Shown: positions 9,843 to 63,330 of the stretch, piece by piece | Numbering within the stretch: position 1 is the stretch's first letter | Layout: the number at the start of each line of letters is the position of its first letter | NCBI GenBank assembly: GCA_021234155.1 | Contig: JAJEKV010000058.1 | Span: 631,814 to 695,813, forward strand | Length of the DNA: 64,000 bases | Origin: Isoetes taiwanensis | Taxonomy: Eukaryota; Streptophyta; Lycopodiopsida; Isoetales; Isoetaceae | Reading direction: 5' to 3' | The notes under the pieces: model-generated | Told to the model about the DNA's origin: nothing | Databases searched by the model: none | Seen by the model: only the letters and a program-made list of their open reading frames with translations | Position numbers and translations under genes: made by a program

Positions 9843-10003
9843 GAATATCGATACTTCAAAACGCCTTTTGAAAGTTTATTAGAGCTGTTTTTTTCTCTCC
9901 CAATTGCATTTCCAGGAGGGGGATTTGCGTGATTAAAGCTTTTTTTCCTCTCTCGCAAATATTGGACGTTAGTAGCGAATCTAAGTGCACATGTTGGAGC
10001 TAA

Positions 10004-10048
10004 AGAAATGTTCGCGGCGGCCTTGGCCGCCGCGATAAATTTCTTGTA
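10004..10048. repeat. 45-bp GC-rich hairpin element, copy 1
   Basis: A 45-bp unit beginning AGAAATG and ending TTTCTTGTA. Its centre has arms CGCGGCGGCC and GGCCGCCGCG around TT, a near-perfect hairpin inside AT-rich DNA. The outer parts (AGAAAT / ATTTCT) are also complementary. Two identical copies occur at 23,859-23,903 and 28,028-28,072. The structure suggests a very small fold-back MITE. TA dinucleotides flank the copy near both ends. Confidence 0.85.
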
Positions 10049-10355
10049 CTTTTAAAAATACTTTACGAAAATTTTTAGGTAAGTCCAAATTAAATGTGTC
10101 ATCATCTTTCTTTCTTGTTGTAGCTTTAGGTAAACGTACATTTATCCAATACCATAAATGCTTCGTTGGATTTGCAGACCTTGCAGATTAAGAGGAGAAA
10201 ATGTTACAGAAAAATGTCCATAAAGCTGATAAAGAGGTAAGGAAGTTGTTCCAAGTCTGCCATGCGCGCACCATGATTCTAATATGCAATGAGGAGGGAA
10301 ATGAACGGAGGTAGTATATCGAGCACCCCTAAACTAGTAAGTTAACCTTAACCAA

Positions 10356-12098: not shown

Positions 12099-12298
12099 CG
12101 TTGAGGATGATCTTGCACCTCTTGGTGTGGGTCGATGATGTGGCATGCCCTTTGGGCTGAATGGTCATCTCTCCAAGAGACACATCTCCATGATCAGACA
12201 CACCTCTTCATAATCCATCTTATAAATGTACAAGCCAAGGCTGGGGCTATTCCAGTCATTCAGATCAATATATGCTTCCGGTATTCATATTTGTGAGA
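12099..12298 (+). repeat. 5' LTR of the gag-only element
   Basis: 200 bp. The first base is C where the 3' copy has T, so the canonical TG start is lost by a C/T difference. It ends TTTGTGAGA directly before the primer-binding site. Confidence 0.93.
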
Positions 12299-12622
12299 TG
12301 GTATCAGAGCCTTAGGCTTGAAATCTTGGGCATACAAGAAGGAGATTCGGCAAGCGAAGAAATCAAATCAGAAGAAATGTGAAAGCCGAAATATTCTAAA
12401 CCTGGGAGGGCGATCACCTCTGATTGCGCCTGCCGCCTGCACAAGGTTTGCTCCACTTGATCTTCAGAAGACTGACCAAAGAAACGCCCTGTTTTTTCTG
12501 GTATCTTCTGTTGATGTCGTGTACCACAAAACGTGGCTTTGAGGATGCCAATAATAACTTTTGGTAACGTTTAGATATTTTGTTACTAAAATAATTGGCA
12601 TATTCACACTTGGCAAGTCAAG

Positions 12623-13360
12623 ATGAAGTTCCATATAATCGAGAAAGATTTATTTGGAGTCATCGATGGTTCTGAGAAGAAACCAAGTGAGGCTGCCGAG
12701 CTTGTGAAATGGGAATTAAAGAACAAGAAAGCTATGGCCATGATTGGATTGGGATTAGGAGACTCGCAAATTCACCATGTGGATTTCTCCAAATCTGCAA
12801 GAGATATCTGGAATGCACTCGACCAAATCTTTGGAGCGCAAATCAAGCATTCAAAGGTACTTCTAAAGAGAAAACTATTTGAAATTCGAATGGATGAAGG
12901 AGAAAGCCTTTCTGAACATCTAAACGAGTTAAGATCCATTCTGAATCAACTAGCCGGGATCAACGCAAGAGTGGAGGAAGATGATGCGAAAGCAATCTTA
13001 TTTCAAAGTCTTCCACCTTCTTTCGGTAATGCTGTAACCACTCTCCAGATTGTAGAACATCTTACTTTTGAGCAGATTATTGCCTCTTTATTGGAAGAAG
13101 AGCGCAAATTGCGAAAGCAAGATCTTTCCTCTGTGGCAATGTTTGCTAAAGGAAAGGATAAACAAGGAGAAAGTGAAGAACAAAATGATAGCACTAGCAA
13201 TATGGCAGAAAGAAAACCAGGAAAATGCCGCTATTGTGGAAAAGCTGGTCATTGGGCAAGAGATTGTCGAAAGAAGAAAAATGATGAATCAAAATCTAAA
13301 GAACCTGAACACAAGAGCTTTACTGCTATAATTGAAGATGATGAAGACTTAGGTTTCTAG
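12623..13360 (+). CDS. Copia-type gag polyprotein of a non-autonomous element
   Basis: This uninterrupted 245-codon frame is the sole product of the 1.6-kb LTR element. It contains the UBN2/retrotrans_gag fold of plant Copia elements: AAELVKWELKNKKAMAMIGL, then ARDIWNALDQIFG, LLKRKLFEIRMDEGES, and the LPPSFGNAVTTL region at about residues 130-140. Near residue 201 is a CCHC zinc knuckle (CRYCGKAGHWARDC; CX2CX4HX4C), followed by a basic and then acidic tail. Gag would package the element RNA into virus-like particles in the cytoplasm. It appears intact, consistent with the young LTRs. The N-terminus starts slightly inside the usual gag start (typical MAxxxKFxG...W), so a few residues may be missing. 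Confidence 0.9.
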   Translation: MKFHIIEKDLFGVIDGSEKKPSEAAELVKWELKNKKAMAMIGLGLGDSQIHHVDFSKSARDIWNALDQIFGAQIKHSKVLLKRKLFEIRMDEGESLSEHLNELRSILNQLAGINARVEEDDAKAILFQSLPPSFGNAVTTLQIVEHLTFEQIIASLLEEERKLRKQDLSSVAMFAKGKDKQGESEEQNDSTSNMAERKPGKCRYCGKAGHWARDCRKKKNDESKSKEPEHKSFTAIIEDDEDLGF

Positions 13361-13541
13361 AACTAAGGTCTATGAATGCAGATAAGAAGAAGTCACTAAA
13401 GGGTGATTGGGACTCCAAGCAGACAATTGCCGGACTAGGAGACAAGTTGATTGGAAGAATCAACAATCTTATCTGATCATTAGGTCTTAGGTCATATATA
13501 TTAGATATGCTATATTATAGAGATGCTAGATCATGGGAGGG

Positions 13542-13741
13542 TGTTGAGGATGATCTTGCACCTCTTGGTGTGGATCGATGATGTGGCATGCCCTTTGGGC
13601 TGAATGGTCATCTCTCCAAGAGACACATCTCCATGATCAGACACACCTCTTCATAATCCATCCTATAAATGTACAAGCCAAGGCTGGGGCTATTCCAGTC
13701 ATTCAGATCAATATATGCTTCCGCTATTCATATTTGTGAGA
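13542..13741 (+). repeat. 3' LTR of the gag-only element
   Basis: 200 bp starting TGTTGAGGATGATC, preceded by the polypurine tract and followed by the AATGA duplication. Confidence 0.93.
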
Positions 13742-23850: not shown

Positions 23851-23858
23851 CGAACAAA

Positions 23859-23903
23859 AGAAATGTTCGCGGCGGCCTTGGCCGCCGCGATAAATTTCTT
23901 GTA
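23859..23903. repeat. 45-bp GC-rich hairpin element, copy 2
   Basis: Identical over 45 bp to the copies at 10,004 and 28,028. It is followed by 'attataagacagcc'. A nearby 'gcggcggccc' (23,770) and 'acggcggcgcg' (24,010) suggest further decayed GC-rich pieces. Confidence 0.85.
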
Positions 23904-24194
23904 ATTATAAGACAGCCATATTTTAAGGCAACCGTGGAAAAAGGGCCTAAGGCAGCTTGATTTTTGATTTTTTGTTTGATGTAATATTTCCGTTCCAGCA
24001 AAAAATTTGACGGCGGCGCGAATAACTGGGATTAAAAAAAAAACTGACATCATCTGAAGCCACGTTTTTCGGCGAGAAGGCCAAAGAGCTCTCTTTCGTA
24101 TGTGTTTGGCAGTGCCATAGCCAGCTATCCGGCATTCCGAGCATTGTTGTTGGAAGAAGACGCTTCGGCTTACACAGCCCCGCGATGAAATTCC

Positions 24195-28020: not shown

Positions 28021-28027
28021 TGTAAAG

Positions 28028-28072
28028 AGAAATGTTCGCGGCGGCCTTGGCCGCCGCGATAAATTTCTTGTA
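28028..28072. repeat. 45-bp GC-rich hairpin element, copy 3
   Basis: Third identical 45-bp copy. Flanked on the left by TGTAAAG and on the right by AGACAT; a TA lies at each side, as for copy 1. Confidence 0.85.
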
Positions 28073-28210
28073 AGACATAAATGTTCTTGCAATCCATACC
28101 AAGAGGATGAATACCAAGAGGTTGAAGGACATATCATAGAAAAGATGTCTTAGAGACAACGCTTTGTAATAAGATTTTGCTTTAATTCGTGTAGAAAAAT
28201 TTTGGAGGGA

Positions 28211-33899: not shown

Positions 33900-35120
33900 T
33901 GTTGAAGTAACTTTTCTATGCACTAAGGCATGGACTTGCAAACTGAATGTAATCAGAATGTGAACCAGATTAAAACACAAACATTAATATATTGTTTATA
34001 TAGTTCCAAGACTGTTATACTTAGTGTAAGTTGTAAAAAACACTGTAAGCAGAAGGTCTCAAGATTCAAGATTCAAGACTCAAGATTCATCCAGAAGGTC
34101 CTGCAGTGTGAGATCAGCAATGGTCCTGTTCCCGAAAATTGTGAGAAGAGTGTCCAGGACAGCTGTTTGGAAGTTGGTGAAGTCTAACAGAAGCAAGACA
34201 TGTGCTTCTACTTACATTTGCCATTTATGATAGAGATTGGTAAAGTATGGTTTGAGGCTATTGAATCTCCAAACCTCAGCCCTTTTCAGCACTTTGTTGA
34301 TTGCTTTTGCATGCACAACTTCCTATTTAAGTTGAATACTTAAACAAACTAAAGAATATTCCTTTGAAGGTAATAAGGAATATTCCTGATAACTAGGCGC
34401 TAAGGAATATTCCTTTCAATGCAATAAGGAATATTCCTTTCAAGGTAATAAGGAATATTCCTTGTTATCTCTATATTGTTGACTCACGCTTTACCAAACA
34501 CAATATGCATAGGTACACAATATGCCTTAACATAATCCATTCATTTGGCATTTGTTGATTTGGCAATTGTTGATTTGGCAATTGTTGATTTGGTAACATG
34601 TGGAACATTGAATGCATGTGGGATATTTGAGCCTATTACTAAAAAAAAAGGGTGGACTAGGATTACATCTTGGACAGTTATGACACGCTGGCCTGTAACT
34701 GAAGATTACAAGCCAGCGAGCCATAACTTTTCAACATCTAATCTCTATCCACACTTATCAATGAAGCAGCAAAACCCTATTTATATATGCGCACGATTTT
34801 TGTGATATATGCATGTGGGATATTGCTAACTTTGTGTTAGGGTTGTGCTAACTGCATACCAAGCAATTGGTCTCATAATATGGCTCAACCTATACATTTT
34901 ACATTTGCAAAAATATTGAGGTGGGTGGATCGGCTCCCGAGGTGTGAAATCTTATGCATGGATACATCCCTTTCCTCTTCTGCCTAATTCCCAAAACAAA
35001 ATCGTATGCATGCAAACATCCCTTTTATTCCCAAAATTCTGCCCTGCAGCTTCATTCCGTCCCCATCGTCTATTCCGCCATCTCCTTCACTCCTTCCCCA
35101 TTCCGTCCATCTCCTTCACT
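33900..35120. other. No gene seen apart from the palindrome array
   Basis: Small tandem repeats of 'caagattcaagattc' (34,060-34,090) and 'ttgttgatttggcaa' (34,552-34,592) are present. No coding family was recognised. Confidence 0.45.
34351..34464. repeat. Five phased AAGGAATATTCCTT palindromes
   Basis: Five copies of a palindrome with core GGAATATTCC (first copy AGAATATTCC) have cores starting at about 34,353, 34,377, 34,404, 34,428 and 34,452, a spacing of 24-27 bp. Between them are short linkers such as 'aaggtaat'. There is no gene in the immediate vicinity. Each unit can extrude as a small hairpin or act as a dyad-symmetric binding site. Confidence 0.9.
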
Positions 35121-42479: not shown

Positions 42480-42957
42480 TACTAAATATCATGTGCTATA
42501 GAGTGCAGTCTGTTTGAGCAGTTTGGCTTGCTTTCTATCCACAAAAATGATAGAGTGCACACAGAGGATGGAGCCATTCAGGTTGATCAATTGGTGGCTT
42601 AAACAACATATGCAGGTCTTATTCTAACACAATAGAAATATAAAATAAACAAGACAGGGAAGTTAAGCTTAGCATTGAGGCCTTTGACAAACTAAAAGAA
42701 TGCATATTTGCAATATTTCCCTTCCCTTAAAGATAAGGTTTCTCAAAATCAATAGTGCCATTTAATTCTGTTATTATACAACATTATAAATCTACATCAA
42801 AAAATAAATATGACATCTTATAATAGGACCAATAGTATATTGTTCAAAATGCTTATACTTATAACAAGTTTTTGAGCACTAAGTAGTTGTTGAGCAAGTC
42901 ACGGGTACTTTACAGGTTCTTTTGAGTATGATAAGCAGGTGAGTAGGACCTCAGGGT

Positions 42958-45122
42958 AGCATGTTGGAGCCTAGGTGGCATTTTTGAGCGCCTTGGCGTG
43001 TTTGAGCCACATTGGCATGTTGGAGCCTAGGTGGCATGTTTGAGACTAGGTGGCATGTTGGAGCCTAGGTGGCATGTTTGAGCCAACCTTGGCATGTTGG
43101 AGCCAAGGTGGCATATTGGAGCCTACGTGGCATGTTTGAGCCATGTTGGCATGTTTGAGCCTCGGTGGCATGTTGGAGTATGTGTGGCATGTTTGAGCCA
43201 CCTTGGCATGTTGGAGCCTAGGTGGCATGTTGGAAACCACGTGCCATGTTTGAGCCACCTTGGCATGTTTGGGTGGCATGTTGGAGCACACATGGCATGT
43301 TTGAGCCACCTTGGCATGTTTCAGCCTAGGTGGCATATTGGAGTCTAGGTGGCATGTTTGAGCCACCTTGGCATGTTGGAGCCCATGTGGCATGTTTGAG
43401 CCACCTTGGCATGTTGGAGCCTAGGTGGCCTTGGAGCCCGCGTGGCATGTTTGAGCCACCTTGGCATGTTTAAACCCTAGGTGGCATGTTGGAGCCTAGG
43501 TGGCATGTCTTGGTGTGTTGGAGCCTAGGTGGCATGTTGGAGCCCATGTGGCATGTTTGAGCCATCTTGGCATGTTGGAGCCTAGGTGGCATGTTGGAGC
43601 CTGCTTGGCATGTTTGAGACACCTTGGCATATTTGAGTCTAGGTGGCATGTTGGAGCTTAGGTGGCATGTTGGAGCCCGCGTGGCATGTTGGAGCCACCT
43701 TGCCATGTTGAAGTCTAGGTAGCATGTTTGAGCCACCTTGGCACGTTTGAGCCTAGGTGGCATGTTGGAGCCTAGGTGGCATGTTTGAGAGCTGCCTTGG
43801 CATGTTTGAGCCTAGGTTGCATGTTGGAGCCCGTGGCATATTTGAGCCACCTTGGCATATTTGAGCCTAGGTGGCATGTTGGAGCCTAGGTGGCATGTTT
43901 GAGCCAACCTTGGCATGTTGGAGCCAAGGTGGCATGTTGGAGCCCGCGTGGCATGTTGGAGCCACCTTGGCATGTTGAAGTCTAGGTGGCATGTTTGAGC
44001 CACCTTGGCACGTTTGAGCCTAGGTGGCATGTTTGAGCCACCTTGGCATGTTTGAGCCTAGGTTGCATGTTGGAGCCCATGTGGCATATTTGAGCCACCT
44101 TGGCATATTTGAGCCTAGGTGGCATGTTGGAGCCTAGGTGGCATGTTTGAGCCAACCTTGGCATGTTGGAGCCAAGGTGGCATGTTGGAGCCCACGTGGC
44201 ATGTTTGAGCCACCTTGGCATGTTGGAGCCTAGGTGGCATGTTGTAGCCCACATGGCATCTTCGAGCTTAGGTGGCATGTTGGAGCCTAGGTGGCATGTT
44301 TGAGCCACCTTGGTGTGTTGGAGCCCACGTGGCATGTTTGAGCCACTTTGGCATGTTGGAGCCTACGTGGCATGCATGAGCCACCTTGGCATGTTTGTGC
44401 CTAGGTGGCATGTTGGAGCCTAGGTGGCACATTTGAGCCACCTTGGCATGTTGGAGCCTAGGTGGCATGTTGTGAGCCACCTTGGCTTGTTGGACCTAGG
44501 TGGCATGTTGGGCCAGCGTGGCATGTTTGAGATCGTTGGCATGTTTGAGCCTAGGTGGCATATTGGAGCCTAGGTGCCATTTTGAGCAAACCTTGGCATG
44601 TTGGAGCCAAGGTGGCATGTTGGAGCCCACGTGGCATGTTTGAGCCATCTTGGCATGTTGGAGCCTAGGTGGCATGTTGTAGCCCACGTGGCATCTTTGA
44701 GCTTAGGTGGCATGTTGCAGCCCACACGACATCTTTGAGCTTAGGTGGCATGTTGGAGCCTAGGTGGCATGTTTGAGCCACCTTGGTGTGTTGGAGCCTA
44801 GGTGGCATGTTGGAGCCCACGTGGCATGTTTGAGCCACCTTGGCATGTTGGAGCCTAGGTGGCATGTTGGAGTCTGCATGTCATGTTTGAGCCACCTTTG
44901 TATGTTTGTGCCTAGGTGACATGTTGGAGCCTAGGTGGCACATTTGAGCCACCTTGGTATGTTGGAGCCTAGGTGGCATGTTGTGAGCCATCTTGGCTTG
45001 TTGGAGCCTAGGTGGCATGTTGTGAGCCACCTTGGCTTGTTGGAGCCTAGGTGGCATGTTGGAGCCCGCGTGGCATGTTTTAGCTACCTTGGCATGTTTA
45101 AGCCTAGGTGTGGCATGTTTGA
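42958..45122 (+). repeat. 2.1-kb minisatellite of alternating 20-22 bp units
   Basis: About one hundred units alternate between GAGCCTAGGTGGCATGTTG-type and GAGCCACCTTGGCATGTTG-type. CCTAGGTGG and CCACCTTGG are almost reverse complements, so neighbouring units can pair. The roughly 21-bp period keeps a reading frame open, which gives frames of up to 117 codons (PPRLQHAKVAQTCH repeats) on the minus strand. These are artefacts. The array lies entirely inside the CACTA-type element. Confidence 0.95.
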
Positions 45123-45266
45123 GTCTAAGAAATGCCTATATGATGCCCAACCAGTGTCTATCTTTGGTTCTTCGTATCAATGTGTCTTCTACAAGTTGCC
45201 AAGTGATGGACCTCTTCAAGTTGTACGCTCTACAAGCTCGGAGGCCAAGACCTTGGCCGCCGCAAG

Positions 45267-49090: not shown

Positions 49091-50300
49091 TCATCATTGC
49101 AAAGCTTCTTAGCAATGCTTCCAATAAAAAGGAGAAAGTTTAATGAAGCAGCAGAATCACATATGGTAGCGCCACGCAACTCCTGTGTTCTACGACACTT
49201 CAGGAGCTGGTCAATTACGTCACCAACCTCGATTACTTTTTCCCAGAGAGAGGGAAAGCACCTCCCCCCAGGACTTGCCCACACCAAACCTCTCAGCATC
49301 TACTAGTACACCTCATGTTGATGTCTCAGACGAAGAAACACCTCATGTTGATCTCTCAGACGAGGACCTACCAAAGCCACAAGACTCTATGTTCGAATTC
49401 AAAGCTCCTGCAAGTAAGAATCTTAAGCGAAACTTACACAAGAAAGCATGTACAACCCAAAGAAGAAAGAAACTCATGGACGAGGCTCACTTGAGGGCAA
49501 CACATACAAAGCACTGTTGTTCTCAACGTTGTTTGCTTAAGATTGGACGAAAGGAATTGAGGTTGATTCGTGATAGTTACAGTTCAATGACTCTGCTAGA
49601 CCAAAGGGGCTACTTAGCCTTCAATATTAGGCCAGATTATGGTGAGAAGTTTACTTACACAGCTGGTGGCCACACCGTCTGTCAAACAGCCTTTAAATTG
49701 ATACATGCCTTAGGCAGCAGACGACTTGACCGCCTGAAGAAAAGGCTTGACAAGAATCCAGGCATTAATGACTACTGCCACTCAGGAGGTATATCCAGAG
49801 TTCATGCCCTTCAATGTGTTTCTTGGATGGAAGGTTTCTTTAAGGAGTCTTGCGAGAAACTCCCTAACCTACTATGTTCTTGGAGGCACACATAGTTACA
49901 AGGCAAGGAAAGAACTAGCAAAGGAAGAAAGCCGTAACGAAGTGTGGAAGCGCATATATATGTGGGTGTAACAGATGAAGAAGCAAAAGTCATTGCCGTG
50001 AGTCATAATCTCGACAATGACTTCAGATTAAAAATGAGTTTAATAGACAAGATCCGTTTCATGCACCGTGAGTACATGGAGTTCAAACAAGTGCATGGAG
50101 AGGACTTTAAAAAGCAAAAGAACAAACTCCAGGAGCTTCGAGAAGCCTGTGTGACAGAGTGCTGCCTCAGTTATGATTCTGATAAGAAGCCCATTATGGC
50201 TGTGAAACAATACGTTAACTACTTTCAGCTCGCTTTCAGAGACGGTCAAGTAAGTAAATGCTTTCATTCTGTCTTTTCGTGGTTACAAGTGCCCGGGCAC

Positions 50301-50316
50301 GGTATAAATTTATACC
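50301..50316. repeat. GGTATAAATTTATACC palindrome in intron 1
   Basis: Perfect 16-bp palindrome. It is nested in a second inverted repeat, GCACGGT / ACCGTGC (about 50,297-50,331). Confidence 0.95.
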
Positions 50317-51394
50317 GCGACTAGTCACCGTGCGCATTTAGACAGTAGACTGTGCAACAAATTCTCTTACGCCATTCAACACTATACTACTTGCGTTTGT
50401 CCATTTACAGGTGTGGGATCTTCAGGAGAGAATTTTTTGTATGTTCGAAGATGGCGAGCTTAAAGAACAAGCTAGCCTCGCAGGAAAGAAACAAAAAAAA
50501 AGTGGTGAATCAAAACAAAAAAATATGAGCATTGTACCCTACGCAGTACAGGGTCTAAAAAGCAAAGACATTTTTGTTCGCCTCTTGGAAAAAGTCGTGG
50601 CCAAGGAATTCACATTAGACAAGATGGCCAAGGAAGCTAAGACGTAAGCCTCATTTGATATGCCGTGTTTTTTTCCACCTTTTTTGGTCTTACAACATGT
50701 TTCTCTTTGCAGTCAGAAAGACATTGTTACCTGCCAGGCCGAGTTAATGAAGCAGCTAAACCTAGAGGACTGGGAGGAGTGCAAGCTTCTATACCCAAGT
50801 TGTACCACAGATAGTATCATCAGAGAGCACGTTGTTAACTTCAGTGGCTTGGTAAGTTTTGCCGAAAATATGTTCTGTGTTTGTGCCTTTGTCTCACAGT
50901 ATTCTTACAGAACAAGAAGAAGGGGCTACCCGCTGGATTTTTAAACCTGGTTCGTAGGGCCAAGGAGGAGAGGCAGAGACTTAAGGCAATCGAACAGGGA
51001 AAAGAGGTCGGCACTAGCAGTTTTGACACTACTTATGAGAGATTTACAACGTTTGGTCAGGACTGCTTGTACAGAGTTGTTCAGGGTGATTGCACGAGGC
51101 TGGGGACACTTCTGGACAAGCAAAATTTTACATTATGCATTGCAGATATTCCCTGTGGCTTCAAAATTAAGGATAGCACTTTTGACGAGGAGGCTTTCAT
51201 GCACGTGCAAGTCCATTCTTTTTTGGATGGCCTGAAGGAAGTCACCCTATTTGCTAACTGGAGGGTCATCATTTTCCATTCCGACCTACAGACGATGTCG
51301 GTGCTTAAACCTATGGGAGCGGTCTGTAACGCCGGCTTCGAAAACTGCGTTTGGTAAGCTTTACATTTAACGCTTTTCTTTTTAGTAACTCCAC

Positions 51395-51525
51395 GGTATA
51401 AATTTATACCACAACTGCCTTAAGGTTTAAATTTAAATGGCAAGGCAATGTTTGTATAAATTTATACGGCTTGCCGCCTTGGTATAAATTTATACAGCAA
51501 GGCAACCCTGGTATAAATTTATACC
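51395..51525. repeat. Phased palindrome array in intron 4
   Basis: Four exact copies of GTATAAATTTATAC lie in palindromes at 51,395-51,410, 51,454-51,467, 51,481-51,495 and 51,510-51,525, plus one diverged copy (GGTTTAAATTTAAA, 51,424-51,437). Centres are spaced 28, 30, 28 and 29 bp apart. Linkers share a 'caaggcaa' word. The regular phasing resembles an iteron or operator array more than random AT-rich DNA. Confidence 0.95.
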
Positions 51526-52279
51526 GCCACACTACCGGGCTAACTTATTTTCCTTGTTTTCATTCTACTAATATTTAACTGTTGTATTGTTTGGCATTCT
51601 TAAAACAAACGTCAAGGGTCATGGTGGTGGTCCGCGCTTAGTGAGTTGTTTCGAGCATTTTCATATAGGTTTTTACAGCGCGGACGCCAAAAAAACCATG
51701 GTTCATTTTAATACGCAGAATGAGAAGACTCCTCCCTGCAATGCTTTTCAGTTCCCGGCTGTTCTGCAGAAATTAAGAGACCCACCGCGACAAGGCGCTG
51801 TGGTGTCCCATTATCAGAAGCCACATCGGCTTATTAATAATTTGATACAGTGGTTTTCTCGCCCTGGAGACTGGATCTTAGATGCCTTTTCTGGATCAGG
51901 CACCACAGCAGTTTGCGCCCTTAAGCAAGGGCGCAATGTCGTCTCCGTCGACATAGACCCAGATAAAGTAAGTTTCATCAGGACCAGGATAAGCTCTTGT
52001 GAATCCTTTCCTGATGAAAACGAGGAACTGGGAGCAAAGAACGGTGCCAGCGATGTTAAAGGCACTTATACAGAAATACAGCCTCCACTTACAGGAAGAA
52101 AAGACGAGGAGGTGGAGTTTGTCGACTTGGAGCCTGTGGTGCCTGAGCCCGAGAAACCGCCTGTGCCAGTAGGATTGGAATCAGAAGGAGGCGTCTCTGC
52201 TGTTGTAAGCTCGCAAGAGCCAGATCCTAAGGGGTACAAGAGTCCTGTGGACTGGGAAGAGCCACCTCCCCCACCTCTC

Positions 52280-52293
52280 GTATAAATTTATAC
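52280..52293. repeat. Palindrome overlapping the methyltransferase stop codon
   Basis: Exact GTATAAATTTATAC; its TAA is the stop codon of the methyltransferase frame. Confidence 0.95.
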
Positions 52294-54925: not shown

Positions 54926-55557
54926 TGGTATCGAGAGCCGTGATTTGGTTTTCGAAATCATAGCAGACCGACAAGCCCTAACTTCGTTAGTTCGGTAGTT
55001 AGGAGGGAGTTAAAGCGAGTGTGATTGTTTAGCTCTTTGATGTTTGGTTTTGTGCTAGGTTGATATAGTAAATTGTAAGTCTTTAGGAAGTTTAGGGCGA
55101 CCGGATGACTCAAGTTGGAAAGTGCCATAACTTTCCTCGAGCAGCTTCGAATCGGAAAAGTTTTGTTTCATTCGTCGGGGACCCTTGAATTAGTCTAGGA
55201 CCTTTGCCGGTGAGCGAAGTGGTGATCGAGGGGGGCGAAAATTAAAATAAGGCGCACTTGGGTAAATAAGGGTTTATTTTGCGATTTTAAGGGCCAAAAT
55301 ACCCAAGTCCGCCGGTTTGACCAGGCGTTGACCATTTTTAAAAAAAAAAAAAAAATTAATTAACGAGGCGAAATTTAACCACGGACGTTTTTTAGGGTTT
55401 TGGCTCACCTACTCCTTTAGGGTTCCGCCTCCTCACCCAGGCCAAAGCGCCATAGCGCCCGTATTTGTCCGTACCCGGTTTGACCAACCCTTTTTGGAGC
55501 GCCCTAGTCGCGACTTCGATCTCCGCGGCCTGCCACTTCATTGAAAAGAGATGGCGA
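54926..55557 (+). mobile_element. Interior of outer LTR element, left part
   Basis: It begins at the primer-binding site. GC-rich leader-like sequence, no recognisable gag. It is interrupted at GAACC (55,558-55,562) by the nested LTR element and resumes at 62,172. Confidence 0.45.
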
Positions 55558-55562
55558 GAACC

Positions 55563-58165
55563 TGTAACGATCCTAGGCCCTAAGACTCCAGCATTGGTAT
55601 TGCACATAAAGCATATGTCTAATAGATTGGGATATATGCATTGGGATATATGCATGGCATATATCTAATATCCACATAAGCAAACTATAAAAAAAAAAAT
55701 TGTAGAAGAGGGCCTTTGGTGGTGCGTGAGGAGTTTTGCAAGAGAGGAGCTCCGGAAGGGATTTGAGTTGCAGAGGAGCCGGAGGAGGCTATCCGGAGGC
55801 AAGAGCTTGCATAGAGCGGCGTCAAATTGTTCTTCCTTTCCGGGTGGGGTTTTGAATTCTGATTCTATGGATTCAATTGAGCTGCATGGGCTGTTAGGAT
55901 CAGATTTGCACATGCTTTTGGGAAGGACTTTTGTAAGAACTGAATTTGATGGACCGGAGAGGCTTTTTATGGAGCAAGCATATGAGATGAGGTTGATGGG
56001 AAAATTATAGTAAGAGGGCACAGTAGGCCGAAATTGATCGAGGAGGGATCAACTTCCAGAAATCATACACTGCAGCAATAAGTTTTACCTGTAAAAGCCA
56101 TCCTAGATGGCACCGGAACACTGGAAGCACTTGAAAACGACACAGGAACAGATCGAAATTGTGGAATAAGGGCGAATTTGGGTTAGCAAGGGCCGAAATG
56201 GTCGAGGGCATGTATGTATTAGATTGATCGAAGGATTCGCCCAGCCAAAGTCTGCCAAAACCATGCATTTAGAGGAGTCGTCTTTGCAAAAATCCGACTT
56301 AGAACTGCAGTCGATGGCCTAGATTGCTGAATCGATGCATGGGCTGCCTATTTTGATGCGTGAGAGGGGCCGTGCAGGTCGCTTCAAGGTCCTGGTTGGT
56401 TCTTGTGTTAAGCCCGTAGTCATAAATTTGGCTGAACAATTGGTTGCTTGGTTTAATTGTTGCTTGATTTGTTGTTTAATAATTGCTTGATTTATTGACA
56501 CATAAAAAGCTAGGTGAATTGGTTTATGTCTTGGCTTAAGAGAAGGCTTAGCCATGGAGGAAAGTGGATCCCAAGAGCTAAGCTGGGGTAATAATGGCAA
56601 TAGTGATACATTAATAAGCATTTGTATTCCATGAGCGGTTGAATTTAATTAATATATTATGAAACTTAAATCTAAGAAAATTCAAGGTATCTAGAGCAAT
56701 GGTATAGACTTGTTCTTGGAGATGGGGCATAACCTGGGATCAGTGGACAAGGCTTACCGACAGTTGCGGTCATAAGATCCTGTAGATTTTATGGTTGTAA
56801 GCCTTAAATTATAAGACTCCGCATTACTTGTCTCAATAAATTAGTTAGCTATGGAAGTGGCTTTTAATATTAAAATCTTGAAACCATATCTAAGGAAGCT
56901 TAAGTAAATAATATGGTGAAGTGAGTACTGCATCGACCTTATAGGGATGGTTTGAGCACGCTACACCAACATTTGAGTTGTCATTATGGTTTTCATCACC
57001 GATCTAGCTACCTCGGCATGGTTAGGTTGTATGGGCAACCTCGACAAGGGCTAAGAGTATGATCTAGGCACATTTATAGTAAATTCTCTAATGAACACAC
57101 ATGTTATGGTCTTTGAATTGTTTCACTGTTGTTCTTGATATTATGTATGTACTTGGAACCTCCGGCCTCGGACTTCGAGGTTAGGTGGCACGGGTAGTTC
57201 GGCATTCTCATGTCATCCGTGTTCTTTGTATCTATGCTCAGTGACCTCCTCCGGCGTGGCCTCCTCACAGGGCGTAGCTTCCTGAGGTTGTACGATCAAC
57301 TCTGTGACTCCATGGTAAGAGAGGTCCTCTTTTCAAATTTGTCACCTCTACTTTCTTACGTTTGGCTAAACTTATATTTAGGGGTAAAAATCTTCTATCA
57401 TTTGAGGTTCACCCCACCAAATCCGATCATAATAGGGCTCGGAATGTGGTAAAAGCGGGCATTTCTCTCAAAAGCTTCTAGCTTGCTTGTCTCAGGTTTT
57501 GGCATTACTTTCTTCACGATTCCATTGTCGGGAAATAGACTTGGCTTGTTTTCTTTTTTGGCCCATGTTGTTTTTTTCCCAACAAGTACTTTTAAGCTTT
57601 TGTGTTCTTTTTTTTTTCCACCTCGACTCTTATGATGTTTCTTACATTGTCATTGTCTAGCACTTTCCATAGTCTCTTGTATATTTGGAATTGTCTATGT
57701 TCTTGTTATCATTGTCTGTAAGATGCTCTTGTGTTTCCATGTATCACTTGTTTGTTATCCAAGATGCCCGGGATCCCCACTTAGTCCCCGAGGACTAACC
57801 CGGTGAGTGCATGTCGCGCGGAACCATGAGGTGGCGGTCAAGTTGATGGTGGCAATGTGGCGGGAATGCGTGCTTGAGTTCTAGAGCTAGCAGTTTCTGT
57901 TGATTCGCTCAGTGTTGTTGTATATGGATATTGATAACACATTGTAAATATTTACGCTATTGATTTGTCCAGTTAGAACTTGGAATATATTAAGCTTGTG
58001 AATATGTTGAATGCATGAACCAGGATTGCTTGTTGAGCCTAAACTGTGGATTTAATTTGCAAAGGAAGATTTAATTCTTCACCTAAATTCACCTGTGCAT
58101 AAATCTAGTTGTAAGTCGAGACAAGATCCCGAAGTTGCCCGAGGGTCAACTCGGCGAGCTAAATC
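55563..58165 (+). repeat. 5' LTR of nested element
   Basis: About 2,603 bp. The 3' boundary is set by the primer-like site. Its last roughly 12 bases differ from those of the 3' LTR, so the end is accurate only to a few bases. Confidence 0.85.
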
Positions 58166-59552: not shown

Positions 59553-59657
59553 CAGTATGTGTATCTTGCTTTAGATTGCTAGTGCAAATTGTCAGTAAGT
59601 ATGACAGCTCCTAGGATCGACCCATGAGGACATGGGTTGAATTTTAGAAGGGGAGAT

Positions 59658-62166
59658 TGTAACGATCCTAGGCCCTAAGACTCCAGCATTGGTATTGCAC
59701 ATAAAGCATATGTCTAATAGATTGGGATATATGCATTGGGATATATGCATGGCATATATCTAATATCCACATAAGCAAACTATAAAAAAAGAAAAATTGT
59801 AGAAGAGGGCTTTTGTTGGTGGTACGTGAGGAGTTTTTGCAAGAGAGGAGCTCCAGAAGGGATTTGAGTTGCAGAGGAGCCGGAGGAGGCTATCTGGAGG
59901 CAAGAGCTTGCATAGACGGCGTCAAATTGTTCTTCCTTTCCAGGTGGGGTTTTGAATTCTGATTCTATGGATTCAATTGAGCTGCATGGGCTGTTAGGAT
60001 CAGATTTGCACATGCTTTTGGGAAGGACTTTTGTAAGAACTGTAACGGTGATGGACGGAGAGGCTTTTTACTGGAGCAAGCATATGAGATGAGGTTGATG
60101 GGAAAATTATAGTAAGAGGGCCTGAAGTAGGCCGAAATTGATCCAGGAGGGATCAACTTCAGAAATCATACACTGCAGCAATAAGTTTTACCTGTAGCAA
60201 AGCCATCCTAGATGGCACCGGAACCGCTGGAAGCACTTGAAAACGACCTGGAACAGATCGAAATTGTGGAATAAGGGCCGAATTTGGGTTAGCAAGGGCC
60301 GAAATGGTCAGGGCATGTATGTATTAGATTGATCAGAAGGATTCGGCCCAGCCAAAGTCTGCCAAAAACCATGCATTTAGAGGAGTCGTCTTTGCAAAAA
60401 TCCGACTTAGAACTGCAGGTCGATGGCCTAGATTGCTGAATCGATGCATGGGCTGCCTATTTTGATGCGTGAGAGGGCCGTGCAGGTCGCTTCAAGGTCC
60501 TGGTTGGTTGCTGTGTTAAGCCCGTAGTCATAAATTTGGCTGAACAATTGGTTGCTTGGTTTAATTGTTGCTTGATTTGTTGTTTAATAATTGCTTGATT
60601 TGTTGACACATAAAAGCTAGGTGAATTGGTTTATGTCTTGGCTTAAGAGAAGGCTTAGCCATGGAGGAAAGTGGATCCTGAAGAGCTAAGCTGGGGTAAT
60701 AATGGCAATAGTGATACAGTTAATAAGCATTTGTATTCCATGAACGGTTGAATTTAATTAATATATTATGAAACTTAAATCTAAGAAAATTCAAGGTATC
60801 TAGAGCAATGGTATAGACTTGTTCTTGGAGATGGGGCATAACCTGGGATCAGTGGACAAGGCTTACCGACAGTTGCGGTCATAAGATCCTGTAGATTTTA
60901 TGGTTGTAAGCACAGAATTATAAGACTCCGCATTACTTGTCTCAATAAATTAGTTAGCTATGGAAGTGGCTTTTTAATATTAAAATCTTGAAACCATATC
61001 TAAGGAAGCTTAAGTAAATAATATGGTGAAGTGAGTACTGCATCGACCTTATAGGGATGGTTTGAGCACGCTACACCAACATTTGAGTTGTCATTATGGT
61101 TTTCATCACCGATCTAGCTACCTCGGCATGGTTAGGTTGTATGGGCAACCTCGACAAGGGCTAAGAGTATGATCTAGGCACATTTATAGTAAATTCTCTA
61201 ATGAACACACATGTTATGGTCTTTGAATTGTTTCACTGTTGTTCTTGATATTATGTATGTACTTGGAACCTCCGGGGTCGGACTTCCAGGTTCGGTGGCC
61301 TGGGTAGTTCTGGCATTCTCATGTCATCTGTGTTCTTTGTATCTATGCTCTGTGACACCGGGCGTGGCCTCCTCCTACTTCGTAGCTTCCGGTGAGGTTG
61401 TGCGTCAACTCCCGTGGTGACTCCATGGTAAAGAGGTCCTCCAAACCGCCGGGGCGTGGGCTGGGGAAGGGTATCTTGCTATCACGAGGTTCACCCCCAC
61501 CAACTCCGCCAACGGGGCTCGGAATGTGGTGGCGGGCATTTCTCTCGCTAAGAGCACGCTTGTAGGTCGGGCCGAGCTTCCCATTGTCCCGGAGCTTTGT
61601 TATGTTGTTTTGGTACTTTGGCTTTGTGTTCTTTGCTCCTGACTCTTATGATGTTTCTTCTGTTGTCATTGTCTAGCACTGCACATAGTCTCTTGTATAT
61701 TTGGAATTGTCTATGTTCTTGTTATCCAAGATGCCCGAGTGTTTCCATGTATGCGGCCCGGCGACTCTGGGGATCCCCACTTAGTCACGAGGACTAACCC
61801 CAGTGAGTGCATGTGCAGTGAACCCGCAAGGTGGCGGTCAAGTTGATGGTGGCAATGTGGCCGGGAATCGTGCTTGAGTTCTAGAGCTAGCAGTTTCTGT
61901 TGATTCGCTCAGTGTTGTTGTATATGGATATTGATAACACATTGTAAATATTTACGCTATTGATTTGTCCAGTTAGAACTTGGAATATATTAAGCTTGTG
62001 AATATGTTGAATGCATGAACCAGGATTGCTTGTTGAGCCTAAACTGTGGATTTAATTTGCAAAGGAAGATTTAATTCTTCACCTAAATTCACCTGTGCAT
62101 AAGTCTAGTTGTAAGTCAGACAAGATCCCGAGTTGCCCGGAGGGTCAACTCGGCAGGCTCGTCACA
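59658..62166 (+). repeat. 3' LTR of nested element
   Basis: 2,509 bp, from TGTAACGATCC to CGTCACA, followed by the GAACC duplication. Confidence 0.88.
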
Positions 62167-62171
62167 GAACC

Positions 62172-62920
62172 AAGGGCACTAAGAGCTTCTCAAGCTGCGA
62201 TGTTGTCCAGCTCTTCTGTTTGCTTGGGGACTACATCGGAGATACAGAAGAAGGGCCAGAGAAGACTGAACTCCTCCTAGATCAACTAGTGTTACGATTC
62301 ATGGAGGGGATCGGATACCATACCCGTTTTCCATTTGACGTAAGCGGTTCTTGCTAAAGCTCAACGCTGAAGGGATGACTTATACCTTGGTGGAGCAGGG
62401 AGGACCAAACCCTAACCTTAGTTAAATACTACCCTCGCTGGATATGGCCCCAGATGCTTTGGAGCCGAGGCTCGAGAGAGTAGCCACCGACACAATGGCC
62501 ATGGCCCACGAGGAAGATCTTAGGGAGGCGGCTTCGTGCGCACCCGGCTACAAGGGGTCATGAGTATCGTGTATTTGGGACGGGTAGAGCCATGCTGGGG
62601 CCACGCTTTTAATACCCCCATACTACTACGATGAGGATGCCCAGTTCTTTATCCGAAGATGTTAACCCCCGCTTCCCCGAGGAAGAACCGATGGATGTGG
62701 AACTTGACATGGCGGCCCGACCGGACCGATATCTTGCGAGAGATCCGACGACGGACGGCCGCACGCTTGTTAAGGGAGCAAAGACGCCGAAGCGACAGCA
62801 GCTTCGGATACTAGTAGCCGAGACGGATACCGGGTTAGGGGGAGCCCCTAACCGCTTTTACTGGGCGGAAGAAAGACCACCAGCCCAACTCTCCGGGTCA
62901 CAATACAAGACCCATTTCGG
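62172..62920 (+). mobile_element. Interior of outer LTR element, right part
   Basis: It continues the sequence broken at 55,562. Open stretches (62,180-62,355, including LFCLLGDYIGDTEEGPEKTE; 62,631-62,921, DVELDMAARPDRYLARDPTT) look protein-like but match no domain I know. GC content is clearly higher than in the left half of the window. Confidence 0.35.
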
Positions 62921-63330
62921 GTGATGGGTGGGGTTGCGAAGAAGAGGGGATACCCGGCGGACACCTTAGTTGAGCGAGCCGACATCCGACCCCGGAGGGG
63001 AGGGAAGAGACTTCCTCTTGTTCCCCCTCTTCGTAGGAAGCCCCACCGGTTTAGACACGGGGCGGTGGCCACTGAAATCCGCAGTATCGGTTCCGCGGAG
63101 CTTCTCCTTAGGAAGTTGCCGTTCAAGCGTCTTGTTCGGGAAATCGCGCAGGAGTTTAAGACTGACCTCCGGTTCCGGGCGCATGCCATCTTGGCCCTCG
63201 GGTGAGGCGGTGAGGATTATCCGGTTTAGCTTCTTGGCGACGCGAACCTCTCCCCATTGCTATACATGCTAAGCGTGTGACCATCATGCCCAAGGATTTG
63301 GCCTTGGCGTAGGATTCATGGGGAGAGGCC
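62921..63330 (+). pseudogene. Histone H3-like relic
   Basis: From the ATG at 62,924 about 42 divergent residues are followed by the H3 core: [17 protein letters not shown], then [20 protein letters not shown] and [16 protein letters not shown]. This corresponds to the KKPHRFRPGTVALREIR ... [27 protein letters not shown] segment (alpha-N to alpha-2). The frame then stops near 63,202, but shifted frames continue the alpha-3 end (GDANL near 63,237; HAKRVTIMPKDLALA near 63,270, matching AIHAKRVTIMPKDIQLA) to a stop at 63,310. The N-tail keeps its length but loses the ARTKQTARKS and K27 contexts. H3 packages DNA in nucleosomes; this copy cannot make a full protein. It lies in the apparent interior of an LTR element, so capture is possible. 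Confidence 0.8.

Follow-up and report, generated by a model that had tools for sequence, protein, structure and literature searches.

A decayed-looking gene with ParB-like and amino-methyltransferase parts, and a palindrome associated with it, in Isoetes taiwanensis

Fusions of a ParB-like domain to a DNA methyltransferase (MTase) occur in phages and bacteria; an Anaerosphaera phage protein (XPP58267.1) is one example, B. cereus Bce_0392 is cited as another in PMC5512222, and the ParB domain of a ParB-methylase was reported in the same paper to nick DNA. In this study, we analyzed an intron-containing gene at 49115-52285 (plus strand) of a 64,000-nucleotide stretch of Isoetes taiwanensis DNA (contig JAJEKV010000058.1, positions 631,814 to 695,813), hereafter called the window. 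The gene resembles the phage and bacterial fusions in that a ParB-like segment appears to precede a beta-class amino-MTase, which can mostly be aligned with theirs. In contrast to them, it is nuclear, is interrupted by introns, and has an additional Cys/His-rich N-terminus and a long linker; its ParB part is too diverged for Pfam, and its motif IV is of the form DxP[YC]GF instead of DPPY. We consider it probable that the gene belongs, as a decayed copy, to a multi-locus family with bacterial or phage ParB-methyltransferase ancestry, with identity, ancestry and decay taken jointly. Our best overall explanation, which couples such a decayed family member with targeting of the family's own DNA, is one toward which we lean slightly.

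Other described systems share single features with this locus. VANC21 of VANDAL21 in Arabidopsis binds YAGTATTAY motifs, which are dense in noncoding parts including the introns of VANC21 itself (PMC5735166), and VANC proteins were reported to induce loss of methylation at motif-dense places (PMC5735166; PMC10398659). The window gene likewise has arrays of a short motif in its own introns and noncoding parts, as seen within the 64-kb window. Unlike the VANC21 motif, which is not palindromic, the window motif is a 14-bp palindrome, and the window gene differs further from VANC in the presence of an MTase domain and in that no transposon ends were found around it. The N4CMT of bdelloid rotifers is, as described in PMC8885841, also a bacterial amino-MTase captured by a eukaryote, with an SPPY motif and a chromodomain, whereas the window copy reads DIPCGF and has no chromodomain in Pfam at E<=10. 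MTases have also been reported in mobile or repeated DNA, namely Dam in DIRS elements and DNMT in Symbiodinium LINE/DIRS and Klebsormidium Gypsy elements (PMC5890265). Those are C5 or Dam-type enzymes of retroelements, whereas the window reading is without a reverse transcriptase domain. Among land plants, bryophytes such as Marchantia have amino-MTases in the form of N4-cytosine MTases; we know of no ParB-like part in these, and to our knowledge no ParB-type amino-MTase has been described in vascular plants. The titles and abstract starts of the open PMC literature yielded no plant ParB-MTase fusion among the matches listed. Bacterial gene transfers were reported for Ceratopteris, with no DNA methylase named among them in the available part of that report (PMC9477723).

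A beta-class MTase had been called in an earlier reading of the letters alone (the sequence-only reading), and this call was right. The amino-MTase family PF01555 matched exon 5 with an E of 2.9e-15 (57.2 bits against a cut-off of 26.7). Motif IV (DIPCGF, 51145-51162) precedes an intact motif I for S-adenosylmethionine binding (DAFSGSGTT, 51881-51907), which is the permuted beta-class order. The catalytic motif IV form [DNS]PP[YFW] (in part after PMC8885841) was absent from the window copy (DIPC) and from its relatives in Adiantum ferns (DAPY or DALY). A PDB sequence search gave 16 matches at E<=0.01, the best four of which were DNA modification methylases (MboIIA, RsrI twice and CcrM); the remaining ones include non-DNA methyltransferases and dehydrogenases. 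When phage proteins were searched with the MTase domain, 304 records matched, 17 of them covering 80% or more of the query. A Geobacillus phage MTase was aligned at 95% coverage and 25.6% identity (5e-7), and the second-listed match was an Anaerosphaera phage gene named ParB-like, whose full reading of 413 amino acids (aa) consists of ParB followed by MTase. With the joined 862-aa reading as query, 10 of 7993 scored candidates reached E<=0.01. Each of these has PF01555, and P0003 alone carries ParB PF02195 as well. P0003 as query in turn gave no relative in viral contigs; in genome contigs it found five MTase loci, where the match was confined to its MTase part. Because ParB-MTase fusions of the same order exist (P0003 and the Anaerosphaera phage protein), bacterial or phage ancestry is likely. 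The domestication suggested earlier suits the window copy badly, because that copy looks decayed.

Relatives of the upstream part were found in ferns. When proteins were searched with the exon-1 part, three of 1043 scored candidates were retained at E<=1 (E 7e-21 to 2e-13), and all were from Adiantum (Pteridaceae; taxonomy checked for A. nelumboides), one in A. capillus-veneris and two, P0012 and P0013, in A. nelumboides on different contigs. P0012 and P0013 extend through the linker into the N-terminal MTase half, where identity to the window is 23-27% (27% for P0013) and motif IV reads DALYGF in P0012 and DAPYGF in P0013. This continuation indicates that the link between a ParB-like part and half of an MTase exists beyond the window and did not arise by accident at this locus. 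The order of ParB before MTase, in the window and, for the N-terminal MTase half, in P0012 and P0013, hinges on the ParB assignment. As the Adiantum gene models read, the C-terminal MTase half is missing or replaced. A profile search with four fern rows retained none of 7999 candidates at E<=1 and also missed P0013 (608 aa), which makes it a weak null. Outside the window, relatives of the family were found only in Adiantum ferns, and we infer that the introns and the Cys/His-rich N-terminus were gained since capture.

Contamination with bacterial or viral DNA, or a giant-virus gene that has become endogenous, would fit the finding that outside Adiantum only the MTase was matched (by ten proteins and by phage records). 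The introns and the Adiantum homologues, one of which sits on a 162-Mb contig, argue against contamination, as do the plant transposons elsewhere in the window. In viral contigs, five stretches matched the search pattern and none was confirmed as a relative, in a search sensitive to close relatives only. We regard an origin of this kind as very improbable.

The segment VLGGTHSYKARKELAKEE...HIYVGVTDEEAKVIAVSHN upstream of the MTase is probably ParB/Srx-like, as the sequence-only reading had it, judging from in-register alignments, although profile searches gave no significant match. Its first portion, SLTYYVLGGTHSYKARKELAKEE, is read in frame +1 (49861-49968) and aligns to Adiantum P0011 and P0012; the remainder, together with the part that follows it up to intron 1, IYVGVTDEEAKVIAVSHN...YFQLAFRDGQ, is read in frame +3 (49938-50249) and includes the VGVTDEEAK part. 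A phage search with the ParB-like part retained three of 50,697 records at E<=10, all annotated as ParB-like and in register, with E values of only 5-10, identities of 34-36%, and two of the three records belonging to the same phage. The register shared with these proteins is ILAGNHTLMAFRELAEQEPEDPRWRK...VDVDDDMADRIVVADN, and the motif G-x-[HR]...A...[DE]EA...N was derived from the aligned phage sequences themselves. The ParB-like family PHROG 6392 gave an E of 0.033 on the window segment and 0.25 on the whole reading, and NCBIfam ParB profiles gave no match at E<=10, nor at E<=1 with the whole joined reading. Two further candidates were discarded. A BLASTP alignment of the segment with the ParB part of P0003 (18.9 bits, E 0.12) had the wrong register, and five sequences obtained at E<=10 when PDB was searched with the ParB-like profile were taken as chance; these were a sigma factor and designed repeat proteins, the latter with total E values starting at 6e-4 but no single stretch passing alone. 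An AlphaFold model of P0012 from a six-row alignment had a mean predicted local distance difference test score of 38.3 and was unusable for fold assignment.

The proposed limits of the gene were borne out by an ATG at 49115 and a TAA at 52283-52285, but the continuous gene drawn between them was not, owing to frame changes in "exon 1" and a splice problem at intron 4. Frame +2, opened by the ATG at 49115, hits a stop at 49306, and "exon 1" as drawn needs three frame changes from that ATG (+2 to +3 to +1 to +3). The frame +3 reading at 49170-49892, with its first in-frame ATG at 49389, contains the Cys/His-rich part HCCSQRC...GHTVCQTAF (about 49503-49757), which had no match in Pfam or PDB; the frame +1 reading with the GGTHSYKA part occupies 49738-49968. 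An intron as the cause of the change from +3 to +1 was rejected: 14 combinations keep the frame open, and in the 12 listed no donor agrees with the consensus at more than 5 of 8 positions. The last change, from +1 to +3 at 49956-49968, is shown independently by overlapping Adiantum alignments, P0011 and P0012 both aligning to 49861-49968 in +1 and to 49956-50276 in +3. Twelve splice combinations would produce this change, and their donors, too, score no better than 5 of 8 against the consensus.

The claim of spliceosomal introns stands for introns 1-3. Intron 1 (50250-50410, 161 nt, GTAAGT...TTTACAG), intron 2 (50644-50712, 69 nt) and intron 3 (50852-50910, 59 nt) have GT-AG borders, and exon 2 (50411-50643), exon 3 (50713-50851) and exon 4 (50911-51353, the N-terminal MTase half) form one open reading; the Adiantum gene models cross the position of intron 1 without a break (FRDGEVWDLQE). 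For intron 4, homology implies 51354-51598 with an uncertain right end, followed by exon 5 (51599-52285, left end uncertain), which encodes the C-terminal half of PF01555 and an acidic, proline-rich tail. Acceptors 51645 and 51678 are the only ones that preserve the frame with the strong donor at 51354, and splicing to either removes KTNVKGHGGGPRLVS or more, a stretch that has a retained counterpart, KPNIHGYKLDRLSW, in Adiantum. Weaker upstream donors (3-5 of 8 consensus positions) could pair with an acceptor at 51616, by which part of KTNVKGHGGGPRLVS would be kept and the end of exon 4 lost. The frame changes, the splicing of intron 4 and the Cys in place of Tyr in motif IV give the impression that the window copy is decayed, or that the assembly contains errors. 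With Cys at that position, the most likely outcome for the copy would be binding with no methylation, or no product at all.

It may instead be supposed that the gene is intact and expressed, a domesticated fern methyltransferase in which the frame changes stem from errors of the reads or the assembly and intron 4 ends at 51678 or 51645. The change from +1 to +3 does fall in a short AT repeat, gcgcatatatatgtggg, a likely place for indel errors; splicing from donor 51354 to acceptor 51678 preserves the frame, and both exon 5 and the joined exons 2-4 are open. However, the three frame changes, the loss of a conserved MTase piece in every in-frame splice from the strong donor, and Cys in place of Tyr in motif IV all point in the same direction, and we judge an intact gene to be unlikely.

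Of all parts of the locus, a self-associated palindrome holds the most interest and is the least explained. The perfect 14-bp palindrome GTATAAATTTATAC has six exact copies in the window, starting at 50302 in intron 1 (50302-50315), at 51396, 51454, 51482 and 51511 in intron 4, and at 52280, where it spans the final codon together with the stop (52280-52293). The expected count is 0.01 with up to one mismatch allowed, and none of 100 shuffles reached six. The exact copies are confined to the introns and stop codon of the gene, within 2 kb, and the other 60.8 kb of the window contains none. In intron 4 they form a tandem array with a period of about 29 bp (51395-51525), in which a degenerate copy at 51425 is spaced at 28-29 bp with the exact four. 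With up to three mismatches, 13 matches were counted against 4.85 expected (shuffle maximum 12, n=100): the six exact copies, the copy at 51425, one at 49691 in exon 1, and five elsewhere in the window. Among 40 listed 14-mers with at least three copies at at least three separated places and not wholly inside a satellite at 43-45 kb, GTATAAATTTATAC is the sole palindrome and the sole one restricted to one gene. The RNA of intron 4 folds far more strongly than its shuffles (z -4.85, 0 of 200), as the palindromes would lead one to expect. A palindrome-pair pattern had no matches in viral contigs.

The array could also be an ordinary minisatellite that lies in the gene by chance and has no tie to the protein, and we give this only a little less than an even chance. 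Palindromic repeats do occur elsewhere in the window, as a 24-bp array at 34350-34463 and a hairpin repeat of about 50 bp at 10002-10055, 23852-23910 and 28024-28073. Against a chance location stands the finding that exact copies occupy three separate places in the gene and none outside it; if the three places are treated as independent, the chance of all falling in the gene is about 1.2e-4, a value calculated post hoc. Moreover, the single copies lie 0.8-1.1 kb from the array, unlike the products of slippage of one minisatellite.

ParB-family proteins bind palindromes of similar length. In intact members of the family, the N-terminal region, the ParB-like region or both may bind the palindrome as a dimer, and such binding would steer the MTase to methylate amino groups of adenine or cytosine at its own locus and at copies related to it. 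Either this mark or the bound protein itself might then keep the family's own DNA expressed against host silencing in a VANC-like manner, or regulate the gene. That the enzyme acts through the palindrome on its own gene is a tentative proposal of low probability, drawn by analogy. Equally speculative is the broader picture of a selfish fern gene family in which a phage ParB-methylase has turned into a self-addressing epigenetic device, with a parS-like palindrome in introns and stop codon. It is likewise doubtful, though conceivable, that N6-methyladenine (6mA) or N4-methylcytosine (4mC) written there, or a protein merely bound, lets the family's own copies escape silencing. If true, the family would be a DNA-writing, independently evolved counterpart of VANC. 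Should intact members place 6mA or 4mC on their own palindromes, ferns would offer a tractable example of a bacterial mark captured by a vascular plant, and anti-silencing of the sequence-specific kind would have originated twice; the question of whether plant 6mA and 4mC are genuine would become testable with a named enzyme and a named candidate site.

A host-serving epigenetic writer, instead of a self-serving element, has a precedent in rotifer N4CMT, since a captured bacterial amino-MTase was reported there to act in transposon silencing (PMC8885841). The joined reading has no chromodomain or other chromatin reader among its Pfam matches, however, and the two A. nelumboides models, together with the decayed copy here, suit a turnover-prone family better. 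We consider a host-serving role improbable.

Several results weigh against a decayed ParB-MTase family member that targets its own DNA. The palindrome statistics were computed after the motif had been noticed, and no MTase was recognized beside the second palindromic array at 34350-34463, which indicates that palindromic arrays can arise here without one. For the ParB-like part, the best PHROG for the window segment is a family of unknown function that ranks above the ParB-like one; no PHROG ParB match was obtained for the Adiantum proteins or the P0011 segment, and at E<=10 Pfam placed ParB in none of the three Adiantum proteins, nor in the joined reading. An hhalign comparison with 11 phage or bacterial-type ParB sequences (10 of 40 listed matches, from 79 records matched, plus P0003) scored barely above column shuffles (1 of 100 in one test; 5, 2 and 6 of 150 in another); the reversed control scored 9.2 versus 17.4. 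As to the MTase part, P0011 ends before it, and Pfam detected PF01555 in none of the three Adiantum models. No pair of terminal inverted repeat (TIR) and target-site duplication (TSD) was found between 45.0-49.1 and 52.3-57.0 kb, although a longer element is possible; the scan used 12-bp arms with at most one mismatch and a TSD of at least 4, and 20 shuffles gave 0-2 pairs. The flanks of the gene showed no significant flank-to-flank repeat. The earlier idea of a mobile element carrying its own enzyme is thus without TIR and TSD in the interval scanned, yet it gains from the two A. nelumboides models on different contigs.

The transposon-rich plant setting described for the window was confirmed by matches to copia gag (PF14223), zf-RVT, RVT_1 and Transposase_21. 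A copia-type element at 12100-13741 has 199-bp terminal repeats that are 98.5% alike; its sole domain match is a gag open reading frame (PF14223, 12590-13357), and it may be a gag-only short long terminal repeat (LTR) element. A fragment of Transposase_21 (tnp2, CACTA-type; PF02992, 7e-20) lies on the minus strand at 1726-2130. A direct repeat pair at 55549-58155 and 59646-62154, with main parts 95% and 89% alike and about 1.5 kb apart, may have arisen by duplication or may flank a non-autonomous retroelement as its LTRs. The palindromic minisatellite at 34350-34463 is formed by AAGGAATATTCCTT with a 24-bp period, and no recognized gene is linked to it. A spacer, CAAGGCAA, considered common to this array and that in intron 4 was dropped, as the spacers at 34 kb are CAATGCAA, CAAGGTAA and GAAGGTAA, so that agreement is limited to the consensus. 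The GC-rich hairpin repeat of about 50 bp has the core GCGGCGGCCWWGGCCGCCGC, and its three copies are 93-98% alike. A 19-bp satellite of about 115 copies (72% matches) occupies 42955-45127, and a histone-fold fragment on the plus strand at 62852-63202 (PF00125, 7.5e-10) is H3-like by eye.

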